DNA from: Actinomycetospora chiangmaiensis DSM 45062
GTDB taxonomy: Bacteria > Actinomycetota > Actinomycetes > Mycobacteriales > Pseudonocardiaceae
Assembly: GCF_000379625.1 (NCBI RefSeq)
Contig: NZ_KB903243.1
Span: forward strand, 310,105-374,104
Direction: 5' to 3'
Length of the DNA stretch: 64,000 nucleotides
Part shown: piece by piece, positions 14,768 through 48,175 of the stretch
How the letters are laid out: each line of letters starts with the position of its first letter
How positions within the stretch are numbered: the first letter of the stretch is position 1
Made by a program: the position numbers and the translations under genes
The notes under the pieces: model-generated
Database searches by the model: none
Seen by the model: only the letters and a program-made list of their open reading frames with translations
Told to the model about the DNA's origin: nothing

Positions 14768-14819
14768 GTGAGCAGAAAGTGGGGCTATAGCCCCACTTTC
14801 TGCTCACCTGCCGGAGGCA
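14768..14819 (+). repeat. hairpin element A (40-nt perfect palindrome plus mini-hairpin)
   Basis: The main hairpin, 14768-14807, begins GTGAGCA and ends TGCTCAC. Its two 20-bp halves are perfect reverse complements. A right-hand mini-hairpin TGCC-GGA-GGCA follows at 14809-14819; no left-hand GNA mini-hairpin is clear. It lies between convergent genes, and its centre (CTATAG) supplies the TAG stop of the minus-strand gene. It probably also terminates transcription in both directions. Confidence 0.85.
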
Positions 14820-18715: not shown

Positions 18716-18774
18716 CTCCGTCAGGTGAGCACTCAGTGGGCCTATAGCCCCCATTAATGCTCACCTGCGAAGCA
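18713..18774 (+). repeat. hairpin element B with two GNA mini-hairpins
   Basis: The main hairpin is 18725-18764 (40 nt, GTGAGCA...TGCTCAC), with outer arms extended to CAGGTGAGCA/TGCTCACCTG. The left mini-hairpin is 18713-18723 (read on the minus strand, TGAC-GGA-GTCA) and the right one 18766-18774 (TGC-GAA-GCA). It separates convergent genes. The inner stem is imperfect but retains a CCTATAGCCC centre like that of element A. Confidence 0.85.
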
Positions 18775-21127: not shown

Positions 21128-22035
21128 CCGGATCGGACGATCTCGATCTTCCCGACGGAGACCCGGAGCAGCACGCCGACGGGGGTTCGACGCCGGCCCG
21201 TGACGACGGCTCGCCCCCGGCCCACGACGACGGCTCGGCCCCGTCCCGGGCCGAGCGGTTCCGGGTCGCCGCCGTCCGCGGGGCCGCGCGGGCGCGTGAG
21301 CTCGACCGGTCCCCCGCGCTGCAGCGGGCCGTGCGTCGGCTGCGGGAGACGCTGCCCGGCGACGCCCACTTCGGCGACCCGCTGTCGCTGGGCGGGGCCC
21401 GGCACACCGAGGCCGCCGGTCGGGCGATCGTGGGACTGACCGGGGACCGCCCCGGCGTCGTGCGGGAGCTCGGTCTCGGCGGGGTGCAGCTGTGGCAGTC
21501 GGTGCTCGAACGGTTCGGCCGCGGCGTCGGCGACCACGAGGTGGCGCTCGTGTTCACCGACCTCGTCGAGTTCTCCCGCTGGTCGCTCGAGGCGGGCGAC
21601 GACGAGGTGCTCCGGGTCCTGCGGCAGGTCGGCGAGGCGTGGGAGCCGCCGATGACCCAGCGGGCGGGCACCGTGGTCAAACGCCTCGGGGACGGCCTGA
21701 TGGTGGCGTTCGCCGACCCGCGGGCCGCCCTCGACGCCGTGCTGGAGGCCCGACGGCGGCTCGGGACACTGCACGTGGACGGCTGGTCGCCCCGGATGCG
21801 GGCGGGCCTCCACGTCGGGCGCCCGCGCCGGGTCGGCGGGGACTACCTGGGCATCGCCGTCAACGTCGCCGCCCGCCTCGGTGACGCCGCCCGGGCCGAC
21901 GAGATCCTCGTCAGCGGCGACTTCCTCGGACGCGTCGACGCCCGCACCGTGCAGGCGAAGCGGCGCCGCCGGGTGCACCTCAAGGGCGCGCCGGACGACC
22001 TGGAGGTCTACTCGGTCGGTGGCTCCGCCCTGTGA
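21124..22035 (+). CDS. class III adenylate/guanylate cyclase
   Basis: 303 residues from the ATG overlapping the TetR stop. The first ~125 residues are disordered then helical and contain a 'DDGSPPAHDDGS' repeat. The C-terminal ~170 residues are a cyclase catalytic domain: metal-binding Asp in 'VFTDLVEFSRW', the second Asp with a base-selecting Lys in 'GTVVKRLGDGLMVAF', and the transition-state Asn/Arg in 'GIAVNVAARLGDAA'. It should make cAMP (Lys favours ATP). There is no membrane segment. Coupling to a TetR regulator of lipid metabolism is unusual. The TGA stop lies in hairpin element C. Confidence 0.85.
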   Translation: MTGSDDLDLPDGDPEQHADGGSTPARDDGSPPAHDDGSAPSRAERFRVAAVRGAARARELDRSPALQRAVRRLRETLPGDAHFGDPLSLGGARHTEAAGRAIVGLTGDRPGVVRELGLGGVQLWQSVLERFGRGVGDHEVALVFTDLVEFSRWSLEAGDDEVLRVLRQVGEAWEPPMTQRAGTVVKRLGDGLMVAFADPRAALDAVLEARRRLGTLHVDGWSPRMRAGLHVGRPRRVGGDYLGIAVNVAARLGDAARADEILVSGDFLGRVDARTVQAKRRRRVHLKGAPDDLEVYSVGGSAL

Positions 22036-22084
22036 GCACGTGCCGTGGTCATACCGACGGAAAGTGCTCACAGGCGCGCAGCGC
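22021..22084 (+). repeat. hairpin element C with two GNA mini-hairpins
   Basis: The main hairpin is 22032-22071 (40 nt), with 8-bp outer arms GTGAGCAC/GTGCTCAC and an inner CCGT...ACGG stem. The left mini-hairpin is 22021-22029 (GGC-GGA-GCC on the minus strand) and the right one 22074-22084 (GCGC-GCA-GCGC). The main hairpin matches element D at 38 of 40 positions in the same orientation. It contains the cyclase stop, and its right boundary CACCTA supplies the TAG stop of the DUF2000 gene. Confidence 0.85.
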
Positions 22085-22086
22085 AC

Positions 22087-22503
22087 CTACGAGCTCGTCC
22101 GTGCACCCTTCGTGATCCTGTCGGCGGCGTTCCGGGGCGCGTGCACGGCCACGCCGACCAGGTCCAGCTCGTCGCGGGGCACCGCCGCGACCGCCGCGCG
22201 GTTCTCCTCGTCGCCGCCGGTCGCGAAGAGCTCGGCCGTGAACACCGGGACCCGCAGCCCCCGGTCGACCGCGCGCCGATGGGCGGCACGGACCGCCTCC
22301 GCGTCGCCCTCCAGCACCACCACGGGCTGACGGAACATCGGGGCGTAGACGGTGCCGCCGGCGTCGGCGTAGGGCTCCCCGAGCAGCTCGGGCTCCGTCG
22401 CCGCGATCCCGCTCGCGAGGAACGCGACGACGTTGCTGCGCTGCCACCCGGCGAGGTCGTCGCGGACGACCACCACGATCTTCGTGTCGAAACGAGGGCT
22501 CAT
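22087..22503 (-). CDS. DUF2000 family protein
   Basis: 138 residues from the ATG at 22503 (GTG 22512 possible). The family pattern is clear: 'KIVVVVRDDLAGWQRSNVVA', 'GEPYADAGGTVYAPMFRQP', 'FATGGDEENRAAVAAV' and 'LDLVGVAVHAPRNAADRITK'. DUF2000 proteins are small, soluble and of unknown biochemical function; the fold resembles peptidyl-tRNA hydrolase 2. It is divergent from the AraC gene with a 50-bp gap, a pairing that suggests AraC controls it. Confidence 0.85.
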   Translation of the reverse strand: MSPRFDTKIVVVVRDDLAGWQRSNVVAFLASGIAATEPELLGEPYADAGGTVYAPMFRQPVVVLEGDAEAVRAAHRRAVDRGLRVPVFTAELFATGGDEENRAAVAAVPRDELDLVGVAVHAPRNAADRITKGARTSS

Positions 22504-22553
22504 GGCGTCCACGATCGACCGGGCCCGGGGAGCGGTTCTTGTACGTTCCTGGG

Positions 22554-23333
22554 GTGGGTCCGGAGCAGGTGCGGGCGTGGAACCCCGGGGTGCCGGGCAT
22601 CGAGGAGGTCTTCCACGCCCGGTTCGTCGAACACGCCTACCCGCGGCACACCCACTCGACGTGGACGCTGCTCGTCGTCGACGACGGCGCCGTCCGCTAC
22701 GACCTCGACCGCGCCGAGCACGGCGCCCTCGGCCGTTCGGTGACGCTGCTGCCGCCGGGCGTGGCGCACGACGGGCGCTCGGCGACGTCTGGCGGCCTCC
22801 GCAAGCGGGTGCTCTACCTGTCCGACTTCCCGGAGGGGCTCGTCGGGCGCGCCGTCGACCGGCCCTCCGTCCTCGACGACGCCCTGCGCGGCGCCGTCGA
22901 CCGCCTGCACCGGGTGCTCGAGCACCCGGGCGACGAGCTCGCGGCGAGCTCCGGGCTGGCCCTGGTCACCGACCGGCTCGCCACCCACCTCGGCGGCGGC
23001 GTGCCCGACGACGGGCCGGTGCGGGATCCGCGGACGGCCGCCGGTCTGCGGGACCTCCTCGACGCCCACGTCGTCGACGGGCTGGCCCTCGACGACGCGG
23101 CCACGCAGCTGCACGTGACCCCGAACCACCTGGTCAAGGCGTTCTCGGCCGCGTTCGGGCTGCCGCCGCACCGCTACCTGGTCGGGCGGCGCGTGGAGGT
23201 CGCGCGCCGCCTCCTGCTCGCCGGTGTGCCCACGGCCCGGGTGGCCGTCGACGCGGGCTTCCACGACCAGGCGCACCTGACGCGGCACTTCCGTCGCCTG
23301 CTCGGGGTGCCGCCGGGTCGCTTCGCGACGTGA
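22554..23333 (+). CDS. AraC-family regulator with cupin-type N-terminal domain
   Basis: About 259 residues. GTG 22554 is preferred over TTG 22539; no ribosome site is visible, so the mRNA may be leaderless. The N-terminal part has the cupin opening 'PRHTHSTWTLLVVDDG' and 'PGVAHDG'. The C-terminal ~100 residues carry the two helix-turn-helix motifs of AraC proteins: 'LDDAATQLHVTPNHLVKAF' and 'VAVDAGFHDQAHLTRHFRRL'. The stop codon lies inside element D. It probably activates the divergent DUF2000 gene in response to a small ligand. Confidence 0.85.
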   Translation: MGPEQVRAWNPGVPGIEEVFHARFVEHAYPRHTHSTWTLLVVDDGAVRYDLDRAEHGALGRSVTLLPPGVAHDGRSATSGGLRKRVLYLSDFPEGLVGRAVDRPSVLDDALRGAVDRLHRVLEHPGDELAASSGLALVTDRLATHLGGGVPDDGPVRDPRTAAGLRDLLDAHVVDGLALDDAATQLHVTPNHLVKAFSAAFGLPPHRYLVGRRVEVARRLLLAGVPTARVAVDAGFHDQAHLTRHFRRLLGVPPGRFAT

Positions 23334-23382
23334 GCACCTGCCGTGGTCATACCGACCGAAAGTGCTCACGGGCGCGCAGCGC
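23317..23382 (+). repeat. hairpin element D with two GNA mini-hairpins
   Basis: The main hairpin is 23330-23369 (40 nt). The left mini-hairpin is 23317-23329 (GTCGC-GAA-GCGAC on the minus strand) and the right one 23372-23382 (GCGC-GCA-GCGC). The two TGA triplets in its GTGAGCA ends are the stop codons of both convergent genes (AraC, 23331-23333; TetR, 23366-23368). The right flank matches that of element C. Confidence 0.88.
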
Positions 23383-44256: not shown

Positions 44257-45951
44257 ATGACCACAGCCGCAGACCGGAGCCCCGACACCGCGGCTGGCCT
44301 CGAGGACTACACCGAGGCCGAGGTGCACCAGGAGTTCGGTGAGAACCCGAACGAGATGCGCGACACGAACCACTACCAGGACGAGTACATCAAGGGATTC
44401 GTCGACAAGTGGGACGACTACATCGGCTGGGAGGGACGCGCCGCCAGCGAGGGCACGTTCTTCATCGACCAGCTGCGCGCCCGCGGTGTCGAGAAGGTCC
44501 TCGACGTCGCCACCGGGACCGGCTTCAACTCGGTGCAGCTGCTCGAGGCGGGGTTCGAGACGGTCTCGGCGGACGGCAGCGCCGAGATGCTCGCCAAGGC
44601 CTTCGCGAACGGCCGCGACCGCGGGCACGTGCTGCGCGTGGTCCAGGCCGACTGGCGCTGGCTCAACCGCGACGTGCACGGCGAGTACGACGCGATCATC
44701 TGCCTCGGCAACTCGTTCACGCACCTGTTCTCCGAGCGTGACCGCCGCAAGGCGCTGGCCGAGTTCTACGCGATGCTCTCGCACGACGGGGTGCTGATCC
44801 TCGATCAGCGCAACTACGACGCGATCCTCGACGAGGGCTTCTCATCGAAGCACAAGTACTACTACAGCGGTGACACCGTGACCGCGGAGCCGGAGTACCT
44901 GGACGAGGGCCTCGCCCGCTTCCGGTACACGTTCCACGACGACGGCTCGGTGTACCACCTCAACATGTTCCCGCTGCGCAAGGAGTACGTGCGGCGCCTC
45001 ATGCGTGAGGTCGGGTTCCAGAAGATCGACACCTACGGCGACTTCCAGGACACCTACGGACAGGACACCCCCGACTTCTGGATTCACGTGGCCGAGAAGA
45101 CGTACCGCACCGACGACGAGCTGACCGAGTCGTACTCGAACGCGGTCCACACCGCGCGCGACTACTACAACTCCGAGGACGCCGACACCTTCTACCACGA
45201 GGTGTGGGGCGGTGAGGACATCCACGTCGGGCTCTACGCGACCCCCGACGAGGCGATCGCGCCGGCGTCGGCGCGCACCGTCGAGCGGATGGCCGAGACC
45301 GCCGGCATCACCGCGCAGACCCGCGTGCTCGACATGGGCGCCGGCTACGGCGGCGCCGCCCGCCACCTCGCCCGGACCTACGGCTGCCGCGTCACGTGCC
45401 TCAACCTCTCCGAGGTCGAGAACGAGCGGAACCGGGAGAAGACCCGCGAGCAGGGTCTCGACCACCTCGTCGACGTCGTCGACGGCTCCTTCGAGAACAT
45501 GCCGATCCAGGACAACGCCTACGACCTCGTGTGGTCGCAGGACGCGTTCCTGCACTCCGGCGAGCGCTCGACGGTCGTCGCCGAGATCGCGCGCGTGCTC
45601 GTCCCGACCGGCCAGGTCGTGTTCACCGACCCGATGGCCGCCGACGGCGCCGACGTCTCGGCCCTGACGCCGATCCTCGCCCGCCTGCACCTGGACAGCC
45701 TGGGCTCGCCCGGGTTCTACCGCGCCGAGTTCGCGAAGAACGGGTTCAACGACTACGCCTTCGACGACCACACCGACCAGCTCACGACCCACTACGGCCG
45801 GGTCCTGACCGAGCTCGAGAAGGCCGAGCAGGCGTTCGCCGGGAAGATCTCGGAGGACTACATCTCGAACATGAAGACCGGCCTGCGCAACTGGGTCAAC
45901 GGCGGGAAGTCCGGTCAGCTGTCCTGGGGGATCTTCCGCATCAAGCGGTGA
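44257..45951 (+). CDS. bifunctional glycine/sarcosine N-methyltransferase + sarcosine/dimethylglycine N-methyltransferase
   Basis: 564 residues. ATG 44257 follows GGAGG. Two SAM-dependent methyltransferase domains are fused. The first (1-~290) carries motif I 'VLDVATGTGFNSVQLLEAG' and the GSMT-specific 'HYQDEYIKGFVDKWDDYIGW'. The second (~305-564) carries 'VLDMGAGYGGAARHLAR' and 'SQDAFLHSGERSTVVAEIAR', typical of SDMT. Together they methylate glycine three times to glycine betaine, a compatible solute. A fused form is known from the halophilic actinomycete Actinopolyspora. Codon use matches the neighbours. No betaine or choline transporter is adjacent. Confidence 0.95.
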   Translation: MTTAADRSPDTAAGLEDYTEAEVHQEFGENPNEMRDTNHYQDEYIKGFVDKWDDYIGWEGRAASEGTFFIDQLRARGVEKVLDVATGTGFNSVQLLEAGFETVSADGSAEMLAKAFANGRDRGHVLRVVQADWRWLNRDVHGEYDAIICLGNSFTHLFSERDRRKALAEFYAMLSHDGVLILDQRNYDAILDEGFSSKHKYYYSGDTVTAEPEYLDEGLARFRYTFHDDGSVYHLNMFPLRKEYVRRLMREVGFQKIDTYGDFQDTYGQDTPDFWIHVAEKTYRTDDELTESYSNAVHTARDYYNSEDADTFYHEVWGGEDIHVGLYATPDEAIAPASARTVERMAETAGITAQTRVLDMGAGYGGAARHLARTYGCRVTCLNLSEVENERNREKTREQGLDHLVDVVDGSFENMPIQDNAYDLVWSQDAFLHSGERSTVVAEIARVLVPTGQVVFTDPMAADGADVSALTPILARLHLDSLGSPGFYRAEFAKNGFNDYAFDDHTDQLTTHYGRVLTELEKAEQAFAGKISEDYISNMKTGLRNWVNGGKSGQLSWGIFRIKR

Positions 45952-45960
45952 CCCCCTCCT

Positions 45961-46017
45961 GGTGCAAGCAATGCGTCACTGCTTGCACCCAGTGCCAGAG
46001 AATCCGGCATCGTGGCG
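45961..46017 (+). repeat. left inverted repeat of the cassette
   Basis: A main hairpin GGTGCAAGCA / TGCTTGCACC with a 9-nt loop (45961-45989) is followed by a second stem TGCC...GGCA. The first 48 bp match the right end with two mismatches, and similarity continues for ~9 more bases. Confidence 0.88.
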
Positions 46018-46028
46018 ACATCAGCCTG

Positions 46029-46070
46029 ACGACGGCGGGTGGACCAGTTCGTTGGTCCACCCGCCGTCGT
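46029..46070. terminator. perfect 18-bp-arm terminator
   Basis: The arms start ACGACGGCGGG and pair perfectly across the loop GTTCGT. It lies 77 bp past the betaine-gene stop but inside the left inverted repeat, as if the repeat had been placed between that gene and its terminator. Confidence 0.85.
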
Positions 46071-46174
46071 GCGTCTACGACCATCCATCCACAGGTCCGA
46101 CGCGGACCCTGCCTCGTCCACAGGCGGCATACTCGTGCTCCCCCTCGGCCCGTTTCGCGCCGCACCCTTCGGCC

Positions 46175-47152
46175 ATGAGACGTGGAGCCTGGGCCGACGA
46201 CCTCGAGAGCATGCGAGCGGCTGCCGACGACGACGTCATCGCCGTCGTGGCGCTGATGGCGCTCGGAGTCCCCGAGAGCACGATCTACCGTCGGTGCCGC
46301 AAGGACGGCCCGTGGCAGCTCCTCGCTCCGGCCACCGTCCTGCTGAGCAACGGGCCCCCGACCCGCCGCCAACGACTCGTGGCCGCGCTCCTTCACGCGG
46401 GCCCAGGATCCATGGTCACCGGCCTGGACGCGGCCCGGGCACACGGGCTCCGGCGCGGGGAGCTTCCCGAGGACGTGCACGTCCTGATCGCGGCGTTCCG
46501 GCAGGTCCGCAGCGTGCGCGGCATCCGGGTGGAGCGGACGAAGCGGTTGCCGACGCCGGTGCTGCGAGACGGTCTGCCCGTCGCGCCGCTCGACCGCTGC
46601 GTACTCGACGCCGTGCGTCGGCTACGGGACCGAGGTCGGATCGCGGCGATCCTGACGGAGCCGGTGCAACGGCGCATGGTCACCCGCCAGGCCCTGCGCC
46701 TCGAGCTCGACGCCGGGTGTCGTCGGGGATCCGGAACGCCCCGGGAGGTCCTCGGATCGATCGACGACGGCGTCCGCTCCCCCGCCGAGTTCGACGTCCG
46801 CCGGTGGTGGTCGGAGCACCCCGACCTCGGGACCATGCGGTGGAACGTGCGGCTGTTCGACGTGCAGGGACGCTTCCTCGGCATCGCGGACGCCTTCGAC
46901 GAGGAGATCGGCCTCGTCGCGCAGGTCGACTCGACCGAGCACCACTTCATGACGCCGGATCAGGTCGTCGAGACCGAGCGTCAGCACCGTGCCTATCGCT
47001 CGGCGGGCCTTCACGTCGTCGGCATCCGTCCGAGTCGGTTGCGGTCGGACCGGGAGGGGCTGTACCGCGACGTCCTCGACGCCCGCACCGTCGCCGCCTC
47101 GCTCCCACGGGTGGACGTCGGCTGGCGTCCGGATATCGAAGCAGGCGCCTGA
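46175..47152 (+). CDS. AbiEi-like N-terminus + DUF559/Vsr-like nuclease-fold protein
   Basis: 325 residues from ATG 46175. The N-terminal ~70 residues resemble the AbiEi antitoxin winged-helix region ('MALGVPESTIYRRCRKDGPW', then 'LLAPATVLL'). The C-terminal ~125 follow the DUF559/very-short-patch-repair nuclease pattern: Glu in 'SPAEFDV' (~202), Asp in 'GIADAFDE' (~236), then 'AQVDSTEHHF', where the usual Glu of the active site is Gln, and 'ERQHRAYRSAGLHVVGI'. No toxin partner is adjacent. Such proteins are frequent orphans in actinobacteria and their role is unknown. It is the sole gene of the cassette. Confidence 0.65.
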   Translation: MRRGAWADDLESMRAAADDDVIAVVALMALGVPESTIYRRCRKDGPWQLLAPATVLLSNGPPTRRQRLVAALLHAGPGSMVTGLDAARAHGLRRGELPEDVHVLIAAFRQVRSVRGIRVERTKRLPTPVLRDGLPVAPLDRCVLDAVRRLRDRGRIAAILTEPVQRRMVTRQALRLELDAGCRRGSGTPREVLGSIDDGVRSPAEFDVRRWWSEHPDLGTMRWNVRLFDVQGRFLGIADAFDEEIGLVAQVDSTEHHFMTPDQVVETERQHRAYRSAGLHVVGIRPSRLRSDREGLYRDVLDARTVAASLPRVDVGWRPDIEAGA

Positions 47153-47161
47153 CCCGTGTCC

Positions 47162-47218
47162 ATCGACGGTGCCGGATTTCCTGGCACTGGGTGCAAGCAG
47201 TGACGCATTGCTTGCACC
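47162..47218 (-). repeat. right inverted repeat of the cassette
   Basis: Inverted partner of the left end, beginning 9 bp past the stop of the enclosed gene. It forms the same main hairpin, with the loop sequence inverted. Confidence 0.88.
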
Positions 47219-47227
47219 GAGCAGGTG

Positions 47228-48175
47228 CTACCGCCGGCGGGACAGCGTCGACACCGTCCGCCCGACGAGGCCCTTCGCCTTGCGCCAGCCCTTCTCGGCG
47301 ACGCCGGCGATGTCGGTGGTGGGCGTGACGATGACGCGGCGCATCTCGTAGGGCGAGTCGCCGCCCGAGGCGAGCCCGGCCGTCGTCGTGATGGCGCAGC
47401 GGTAGCCCAGGTCGCGGGCGACCCGGGTGGTGACGTCGGAGTAGTCCGCGGCCGAGCCGTTGGGGAACGCGAGGGTGTCGACGGTGATGCCCAGGCCCGA
47501 CTCGAGGGCCGCGCGGGACTCCCCCATCTCGACCCGCTGGCCCGGCTCGGTCTCCCGCTCCAGGATCGCGTGCGAGACGGTGTGCGAGCCGATCTCGTGC
47601 CCGGCCGCGAGCAGCGACTTCGCGCCCGACCAGTCCATGAACAGGCCCTCACCGACCGAGGACTCCGCCGGCGACAGCAGCTCCGACACCCGCGCGACCT
47701 CGGCGACCCGGGAGGCGTGGTCCAGCCGCTTCAGCGACGCCCGCACCGCGGCGTGGGCGGTCTCGCGCTCGGCGGGCGTGCCCAGCGGGTACACCGTGCC
47801 GCCGAACTCCAGCGTCGCGGCGCGCGCCCGGTCGAACGCCGACGACAGGTCCTCCCACCACGCACCGACCGTCCCCGAGAGGAAGCCGGGCACGAGGAAG
47901 AACGTGGCCGGGAGGCCGTGGCGCTCGAGGGCCGGCACGCCGAGCTCGAGGTTGTCCCGGTAGCCGTCGTCGAAGGTCAGCACCACCGCCCGCGACGGCA
48001 GCGGCTCCCCGGCCTCCATCAGCCCCAGCGCGGTCTGCAGCGGGAGCACGTTCGCGAACCGCGAGAGCATCCGGAGCTGCCGGGCGAACCCGAGGCGGCC
48101 CACGCCGGGCGGGTCGGGGAACCCGGGCGTCGGGTCGATGTTGTGCCAGCCGAGCACGAGGAGCCGGTTGCCCAT
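47228..48175 (-). CDS. polysaccharide deacetylase (CE4/NodB domain)
   Basis: 315 residues from ATG 48175. NodB motifs are 'LTFDDGYRDN' (catalytic and metal Asp), 'GHEIGSHTVSHAIL' (metal His pair) and 'LAFPNGSAADYSD' (third motif). CE4 enzymes remove N- or O-acetyl groups from glycans with a divalent metal. There is no signal peptide, so it may act on an intermediate inside the cell. It lies 11 bp after the gene at 48187 on the same strand. Confidence 0.9.
   Translation of the reverse strand: MGNRLLVLGWHNIDPTPGFPDPPGVGRLGFARQLRMLSRFANVLPLQTALGLMEAGEPLPSRAVVLTFDDGYRDNLELGVPALERHGLPATFFLVPGFLSGTVGAWWEDLSSAFDRARAATLEFGGTVYPLGTPAERETAHAAVRASLKRLDHASRVAEVARVSELLSPAESSVGEGLFMDWSGAKSLLAAGHEIGSHTVSHAILERETEPGQRVEMGESRAALESGLGITVDTLAFPNGSAADYSDVTTRVARDLGYRCAITTTAGLASGGDSPYEMRRVIVTPTTDIAGVAEKGWRKAKGLVGRTVSTLSRRR

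Follow-up and report, generated by a model that had tools for sequence, protein, structure and literature searches.

The window, by which we mean the whole 64-kb stretch of DNA analysed here, contains a gene of an AbiEi/DUF559-like family that is bracketed by two inverted copies of a palindromic repeat unit. Genes for a methyltransferase and a polysaccharide deacetylase are the neighbours of this cassette, whose features are as follows (coordinates, strand, feature and basis).

45961-45989, + strand: left outer hairpin, a 29-nt palindrome, GGTGCAAGCAATGCGTCACTGCTTGCACC (fold and genome-wide copies)
45990-46013, + strand: left inner arm of the repeat unit, with the second small stem (sequence)
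46029-46070, no strand assigned: terminator-like stem of 18 perfect base pairs separating the left repeat from the gene (sequence)
46175-47152, + strand: 325-aa protein with an AbiEi-like N-terminal part and a Vsr/EDxHD/DUF559-like C-terminal nuclease-type domain (profiles, alignment, structure search)
47166-47189, - strand: right inner arm, in opposite orientation to the left arm (sequence)
47190-47218, - strand: right outer hairpin, the left one in inverted form (sequence, fold)

A sequence-only reading of this DNA had described 45961-47218 as an inverted-repeat cassette with a single gene inside, and this description was borne out. The terminator-like stem at 46029-46070 and the genome-wide occurrence of the hairpin are additions to it. 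In the window sequence, the inverted arms (45945-46013 and 47166-47234) extend over 69 nt at 86% complementarity, the inner 53 nt differ at three positions, and 46175-47152 on the + strand is the only credible gene between them. As had also been claimed, each end consists of the 29-nt hairpin and a second small stem, with single-stranded DNA folding energies of -13.7 (left) and -19.2 kcal/mol (right) and z-scores of -3.7 and -5.3. The arm match scores 44. For random intervals of the window, counting inverted matches only, the maximum was 17 with 500-nt flanks (n = 474) and 20 with 700-nt flanks (n = 573). Direct matches in the 700-nt-flank control reach 125 and are probably local tandem repeats. 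An Rfam search over 45700-47500 returned no family at gathering score.

The encoded protein

The PADLOC AbiEi model matched all 49 family members at E ≤ 1, the window member at 3.4e-8. Pfam matches at E ≤ 1 among the same 49 were AbiEi_4 (12), REase_MTES_1575 (8) and DUF559 (1); the window protein itself had no significant Pfam match, and no transposase domain appeared in the Pfam matches of this protein or of the 49 members. An NCBIfam search yielded nothing meaningful, and a profile search against solved structures gave no match up to E 10. A profile of the family could be aligned with the distant paralogues L132, L135 and L137 over 283 columns (99.4%, E 2e-21), and these three score above the Pfam DUF559 cut-off.

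Fifteen alignment columns are invariant, among them E205, D239, S253 and H257 in all 49 sequences. Three loci with broken or frame-shifted genes (L081, L046 and L032) were excluded from this alignment and retained in the flank test described below. E205, D239 and H257 may be the equivalents of the Vsr/EDxHD catalytic residues. The earlier assignment of the C-terminal half to a PD-(D/E)XK-like DUF559/Vsr layout has weak or indirect matches in its favour. In the window protein's own clade, Q or P stands at the second acidic position of the PD-(D/E)XK motif. The protein is under purifying selection, as dN/dS was 0.10-0.33 in eight pairs.

Structure prediction with AlphaFold2 from three close sequences resulted in a poor full-length model (mean pLDDT 47.5) of which parts of residues 200-310 were usable. 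Foldseek found no match in the PDB at E ≤ 0.001. The first-ranked hit was a Toxoplasma mitoribosomal chain, followed at rank 2 by the I-Bth0305I domain (3r3p; probability 1.00, TM 0.67 by target, E 0.037 and thus below usual significance), at rank 4 by a putative endonuclease-like Neisseria protein (3hrl) and at rank 14 by Vsr (1vsr, probability 0.38). Based on this model, the best sensible fold match of the C-terminal domain, albeit a weak one, would be the EDxHD homing endonuclease I-Bth0305I. On this weak match, the fold would have a precedent among homing enzymes, and the earlier statement that no such family is described for it would need correction.

The N-terminal similarity leads to the main rival explanation of the locus. 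Here, the repeats would be binding sites of the AbiEi-like domain, serving autoregulation at the gene and, at other places, a regulon or the organisation of the chromosome; the nuclease-type domain would be a relic or regulatory. In favour of this, the promoters of AbiEi and of its M. tuberculosis homologue contain 23-bp inverted repeats to which these proteins themselves bind (PMC7319586), and the AbiEi model matches every family member. However, a second copy of the repeat lies downstream of the stop codon of the gene, while the left copy is separated from the gene by the terminator-like stem. Neither invariance of E205, D239 and H257 nor tens to hundreds of dispersed repeat copies, those inspected being mostly near gene stop codons (12 of 15 and 11 of 12 for two repeat types), are readily accommodated by operator function, which we regard as unlikely though with some real chance of being correct.

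Recurrence of the cassette architecture

Homologues were found in all 18 genomes searched of the genus Actinomycetospora, in 50 of 60 sampled genomes of the family Pseudonocardiaceae and, at a stricter cut-off, in 17 of 148 genomes sampled from the phylum. We compared the 500-nt flanks of each locus and counted loci scoring at least 21 as flanked. After L048, L049, L082 and L083 had been dropped as duplicates, 56 of 80 distinct loci reached this score (genus: 43 of 52; other Pseudonocardiaceae genera: 13 of 28). Nine further genus loci added eight flanked ones; from this later test L175 and L190 were dropped as duplicates (16 of 37 flanked with them included). The gene thus lies between two matching repeats at 51 of 61 loci in the genus and at 13 of 28 in other Pseudonocardiaceae genera, which answers the objection that homologues might lack such flanks; 10 and 15 loci, respectively, are without a flanking repeat. 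Among distant homologues in other families, 15 of 19 have no flanking repeats and four score.

None of 1,200 control intervals, inverted or direct, in 30 cassette-free loci matched as well (maximum 18). When flanks from different homologues were paired (n = 1,500), 95% of the pairs lay at 14 and 99% at 44, with a maximum of 234; such pairs score high at times because related cassettes share ends. A detector for palindromes only was positive at 15 of 61 genus loci, 11 of 28 loci of other genera, 4 of 7 distant paralogues and 2 of 19 loci of other families (cross-pair control: 99% at 16, maximum 36), and was set aside because it is too strict for repeat types with short stems.

The architecture recurs with different sequences, since the end repeats differ from subfamily to subfamily. 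Among the four paralogues in the window's genome, L016, L018 and L019 are flanked by three different end types and L017 is unflanked. Ends are mostly inverted, and some palindromic types fit better as direct repeats (e.g. L018 and L068). Treated as a strict hairpin, the L041-type unit folds no better than shuffled sequences (z -1.3). Homologues L086, L087, L096 and L105 from other Pseudonocardiaceae genera are flanked by long near-perfect palindromes.

Beyond chromosomes, a plasmid search gave one Rhodococcus record (32% identity), and a scan of viral contigs with one peptide pattern matched 13 stretches, none of which was a relative. The viral scan bears on a defence role, in which an anti-phage nuclease would act next to repeats that serve as self-marking or protective sites. 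Although the PADLOC AbiEi similarity and the nuclease-type domain are compatible with such a role, the window's cassette has no partner toxin and sits between methyltransferase and polysaccharide deacetylase genes, the repeats are mostly found at gene ends in the copies examined, and the viral contigs, scanned with that one pattern, hold no relative. We accord defence a very slim chance.

The hairpin as a dispersed repeat

The 29-nt hairpin is found at 33 places in the window's Actinomycetospora genome with up to three mismatches; the reversed-pattern control gave none in the same genome. Twelve of these places form six inverted pairs with a spacing of 89-91 nt, and such a pair looks like the cassette minus its gene. 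The RAYT/REP-like logic suggested from sequence alone gains support here, as the gene is bracketed by palindromes that are dispersed genome-wide. Repeats stand beside unrelated genes, yet they also bracket the family gene, so that they are not confined to unrelated surroundings, as had been considered.

The A-type repeat unit is asymmetric, being made up of hairpin and inner arm. Of the 15 such units inspected, 13 contain CGTC, and 12 contain CGTCG, close to where the inner arm ends. A gene oriented toward the repeat has its stop codon at most 40 nt away from it for 12 of the 15 A-type copies and 11 of the 12 L019-type copies, counts that are based on heuristic frames, include the cassette ends and come without a control. 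At L053, L059, L060 and L061 the L019-type repeats start with CGTGAG and, in heuristic frames, the neighbouring gene seemingly ends inside the repeat; the L019-type repeat may therefore supply the stop codon. Further palindromes, e.g. GAACGAAGGGCACC..GGTGCCCTTCGTTC, stand beside other repeats at L052, L053, L054 and L148 and by eye resemble the ends of other cassettes.

The proximity to stop codons is what would be expected if the repeats were terminators or mRNA-stability hairpins amplified for the benefit of the host, with the gene lying between two of them by chance or hitch-hiking. Against this, different repeats enclose different members of the family at every one of the seven chromosomal sites, none of the 1,200 control intervals matched as well, and in two of the four repeat types copy number goes along with the cassette (see below). 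We consider this the least probable of the explanations weighed here.

Gene position and repeat turnover

The 52 genus loci fall at seven common sites and are hence not independent of each other. For 49 loci both flanks are common with the cassette of another genome, for two loci one flank is (L028 and L068), and for one locus neither is (L018). The earlier notion of a cassette is thus upheld as a recurrent architecture, but not as a mobile-looking element, since all but one of the 52 genus loci have shared flanks, at seven sites in all, and dispersal is seen for the small units alone. Identity to the window protein is only 36-59% for the other family members of the window's genome, which thus yielded no second copy of the element.

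These observations weigh on an ordinary transposon with miniature derivatives, in which the gene would encode the transposase and the repeats would be terminal inverted repeats and MITEs. In line with such an element are the inverted ends around the gene, the occurrence of short paired elements that share these ends, and L081, a copy that has lost internal sequence but kept its ends. In contrast, the absence of a second copy in the window's genome, where other members are only 36-59% identical, the shared flanks at the seven sites and Pfam matches devoid of a transposase domain render it quite improbable.

At the window's site, the cassette is intact in five genus genomes; ten others contain repeat units without a cassette. 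In G004 and G010 (the latter a 59% complete assembly) the gene is deleted or split and still bracketed by repeats. The G004 locus, L081 (G004:C1:3553000-3556600), has an internally deleted gene with both flanking repeats intact, possibly a step from cassette toward gene-less element. In G017, a different paralogue with about 50% identity and other end repeats occupies the orthologous site (L117/L045); either the cassette was replaced by another or it diverged in place. For the ten cassette-less genomes, the repeat at this site was compared with 52 cassette flanks, and in eight it matched the genome's own cassette best or second-best (exceptions: G011, 14th; G002, 11th). Species relatedness contributes to this matching.

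A second, convergent intergenic site carries repeats in G000, G013, G004, G008, G016 and G010. In the first five of these genomes they resemble the ends of the genome's own cassettes by eye; of the two repeats in G010, one matches its own cassette L182 and for the other no matching cassette was seen. The site is empty in G003, G014 and G012, where 114, 116 and 37 nt separate the flanks and no palindrome is visible by eye. In G001, G002, G006, G007 and G015 it spans 534-745 nt and apparently holds another gene (first 420 nt viewed). Reading across the site failed in G005, G009 and G017, and for G011 no match was obtained. Of the anticipated hairpin ends around homologues and empty sites, the flanked ends do recur and three relatives carry no repeat at one of the repeat sites, whereas end sequences differ between subfamilies and distant homologues are mostly unflanked (15 of 19).

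Orthologous cassettes have switched end type. By site, the two arms of a cassette are on average 79-95% identical, compared with 61-87% between orthologous cassettes, and within-cassette identity was the higher in 119 of 134 pairs. This comparison used 44 of 52 loci (8 left out) and favours within-cassette identity because the arms were picked by their within-cassette match.

Repeat copy number and resident cassette

We counted four repeat types across the 18 genus genomes and found, for some of them, that the repeats and the cassette of a genome match as cognates. The L041 type is present in 28 (G002), 34 (G006), 36 (G011), 33 (G012) and 34 copies (G014), and exactly these five genomes have L041-type ends on their site-D cassette. 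The other 13 genomes have seven (G015), three (G001), one (G005) and, in ten cases, no copies. Among the copies listed, the GTGGCGT variant occurs mostly in G011 and G014, as on their own cassettes, and GTGCCGT mostly in G002, G006 and G012. Copies of the G013 type number 235, 162, 140, 96, 19, 19, 4 and 1 in the eight genomes with any site-A cassette and zero in the ten genomes without one; the 96 copies in G000 are a type mismatch.

The two remaining types show exceptions. The window's hairpin also occurs in G008 (31 copies), G004 (8), G017 (6) and G002 (1), and no cassette examined there bears it, including L021, L038 and L071 of G008. The L019 type is found in G004 (27), G008 (14), G013 (15) and G017 (3), where the site-F cassettes end in another type. 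G005 and G009, which have the genes nearest to the L019 type, contain no exact L019 pattern because their own ends have diverged. The co-occurrence of gene and repeat number that had been proposed as a check therefore holds for the L041 and G013 types and not throughout for the window's hairpin and the L019 type; phylogeny in part confounds the cognate matching. Readings as a simple transposon, as chance or as pure terminators are disfavoured by the fixed sites, the control intervals and the tracking of the cassette by copy number.

The 40-nt elements

The window also contains five copies of dispersed 40-nt palindromes of the GTGAGCA..TGCTCAC kind, none with an assigned strand.

14768-14807: dispersed 40-nt palindrome GTGAGCA..TGCTCAC, of the family flanking distant paralogues
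18725-18764: dispersed 40-nt palindrome, GTGAGCA..TGCTCAC family
22032-22071: dispersed 40-nt palindrome, by eye like the ends of paralogue L136 in the same genome
23330-23369: dispersed 40-nt palindrome, by eye like the ends of paralogue L136
57786-57825: dispersed 40-nt palindrome, GTGAGCA..TGCTCAC family

The similarity seen earlier between the outer pattern of the cassette ends and these elements was a fruitful one, as the GTGAGCA..TGCTCAC family flanks four distant AbiEi/DUF559-like paralogues in G000 and G004 (L133, L134, L136 and L138) on both sides. L132, another distant paralogue, is flanked by a palindrome of a different family. While the flank test alone registered three of seven distant paralogues, direct reading of the palindromes added L134 and L136, and thus five of seven fit the cassette architecture. 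We also considered 22032-23369 as a second cassette and rejected it, the enclosed gene (22072-23329) being an AraC-type regulator and not a family member.

A proposed two-part system

We think it probable that gene and repeats constitute a RAYT/REP-like two-part system on an unrelated nuclease fold, in which repeat-directed cutting copies and homogenises the units. The first part would be a gene fixed at one chromosomal site and encoding a putative DNA-binding (AbiEi-like) nuclease-type (Vsr/EDxHD/DUF559-like) protein. Short palindromic units would form the second part, two of them, mostly inverted, bracketing the gene and tens to hundreds being scattered between genes, singly or as inverted pairs. 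Most likely, the protein would recognise its own unit and cut or nick DNA there. Cutting or nicking could then result in units being copied into intergenic sites and in older units, including the cassette's own ends, being overwritten by the current type. Binding, cleavage and copying driven by cleavage are steps we infer from the arrangement and distribution of gene and repeats.

A broader claim, for and against which we see the balance as even, is that AbiEi-DUF559 (Vsr-fold) nucleases, not HUH transposases, generate and homogenise cognate extragenic palindromes and thus represent a second, independently evolved REP-type class. If true, this class would be general in Pseudonocardiaceae and reach to the distant DUF559 paralogues with their 40-nt elements. 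It would provide a candidate enzyme class for REP-like repeats without a RAYT and imply that the REP-type way of life evolved at least twice. Further, it would suggest a role for proteins annotated as 'AbiEi antitoxin / DUF559', which are now named after toxin-antitoxin parts or unknown function. A literature search, with preprints and most subscription papers outside its scope, returned no report of an association between a nuclease gene and cognate palindromes in the texts as available.

Comparison with known systems

No known family passed the comparison in full. Insertion sequences and MITE families are defined by transposition of the gene-bearing element itself, with copies at unrelated loci, which is not what we find here. 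The DUF559 and REase_MTES_1575 families are approached through the distant paralogues L132, L135 and L137, which pass the Pfam DUF559 cut-off, in contrast to the window protein with no significant Pfam match. With the AbiE type IV toxin-antitoxin system, the protein shares the AbiEi-like N-terminal region (49 of 49 members at E ≤ 1), and AbiEi proteins bind 23-bp inverted repeats (PMC7319586). However, AbiE includes an adjacent AbiEii nucleotidyltransferase toxin, whereas the window's cassette is a single gene without one, and the protein here, unlike AbiEi, has a C-terminal nuclease-type domain.

I-Bth0305I and Vsr are the best sensible fold matches of the modelled C-terminal domain, at scores below usual significance. 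The setting of a homing endonuclease differs, in that the gene here is intergenic and bounded by repeats, with no intron, intein or split gene according to context and Rfam. Also unlike I-Bth0305I and Vsr, the protein has an AbiEi-like N-terminal domain and is associated with dispersed palindromes.

CGTC-tagged REP families are said to lack a dedicated enzyme and have been reported in Proteobacteria, Chlorobi, Bacteroidetes, Spirochaetes and Thermotogae (PMC3733652). As here, they are short palindromes without a known transposase, and CGTC occurs near the inner-arm end in most A-type units; stems and loops differ. This likeness is a lead and possibly a coincidence in GC-rich DNA.

The closest parallel is RAYT/REP/REPIN. 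Enzymes tied to REP-type repeats are, in the literature consulted, HUH transposases, namely RAYTs and their TIR-bearing kin (PMC3733652). A RAYT is an IS200/IS605-like HUH enzyme, whereas the protein here is AbiEi-like and Vsr/DUF559-like. The Y1 HUH tyrosine transposase domain (PF01797) had no match in the window's genome, a 97.6% complete draft (5 of 14 control genomes were positive), or among the 49 family members; because no Y1 transposase was found in this genome, the system is not a RAYT. The GTAG foot of REPs was not seen in the 15 A-type units inspected, and the units are larger than REPs and have two stems. Nevertheless, the flanking inverted palindromes are likewise dispersed in the genome, and there is one gene copy per type, the gene itself not multiplying. 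RAYT genes, too, occur as single copies that are inherited vertically, and they replicate REPINs (PMC8049555). Common to both systems are, according to PMC8049555, PMC3686654 and PMC3733652, a vertically inherited gene bracketed by inverted palindromes and many dispersed units, single or in inverted pairs, mostly downstream of genes. In the same accounts, copy number follows the cognate gene, as it does here for two types, with exceptions for two; orthologous genes switch their flanking repeat type, and repeats can outlast the gene, as in Actinomycetospora (PMC8049555, PMC3686654, PMC3733652). By analogy, then, the logic of the proposed system has a precedent in REP/RAYT.
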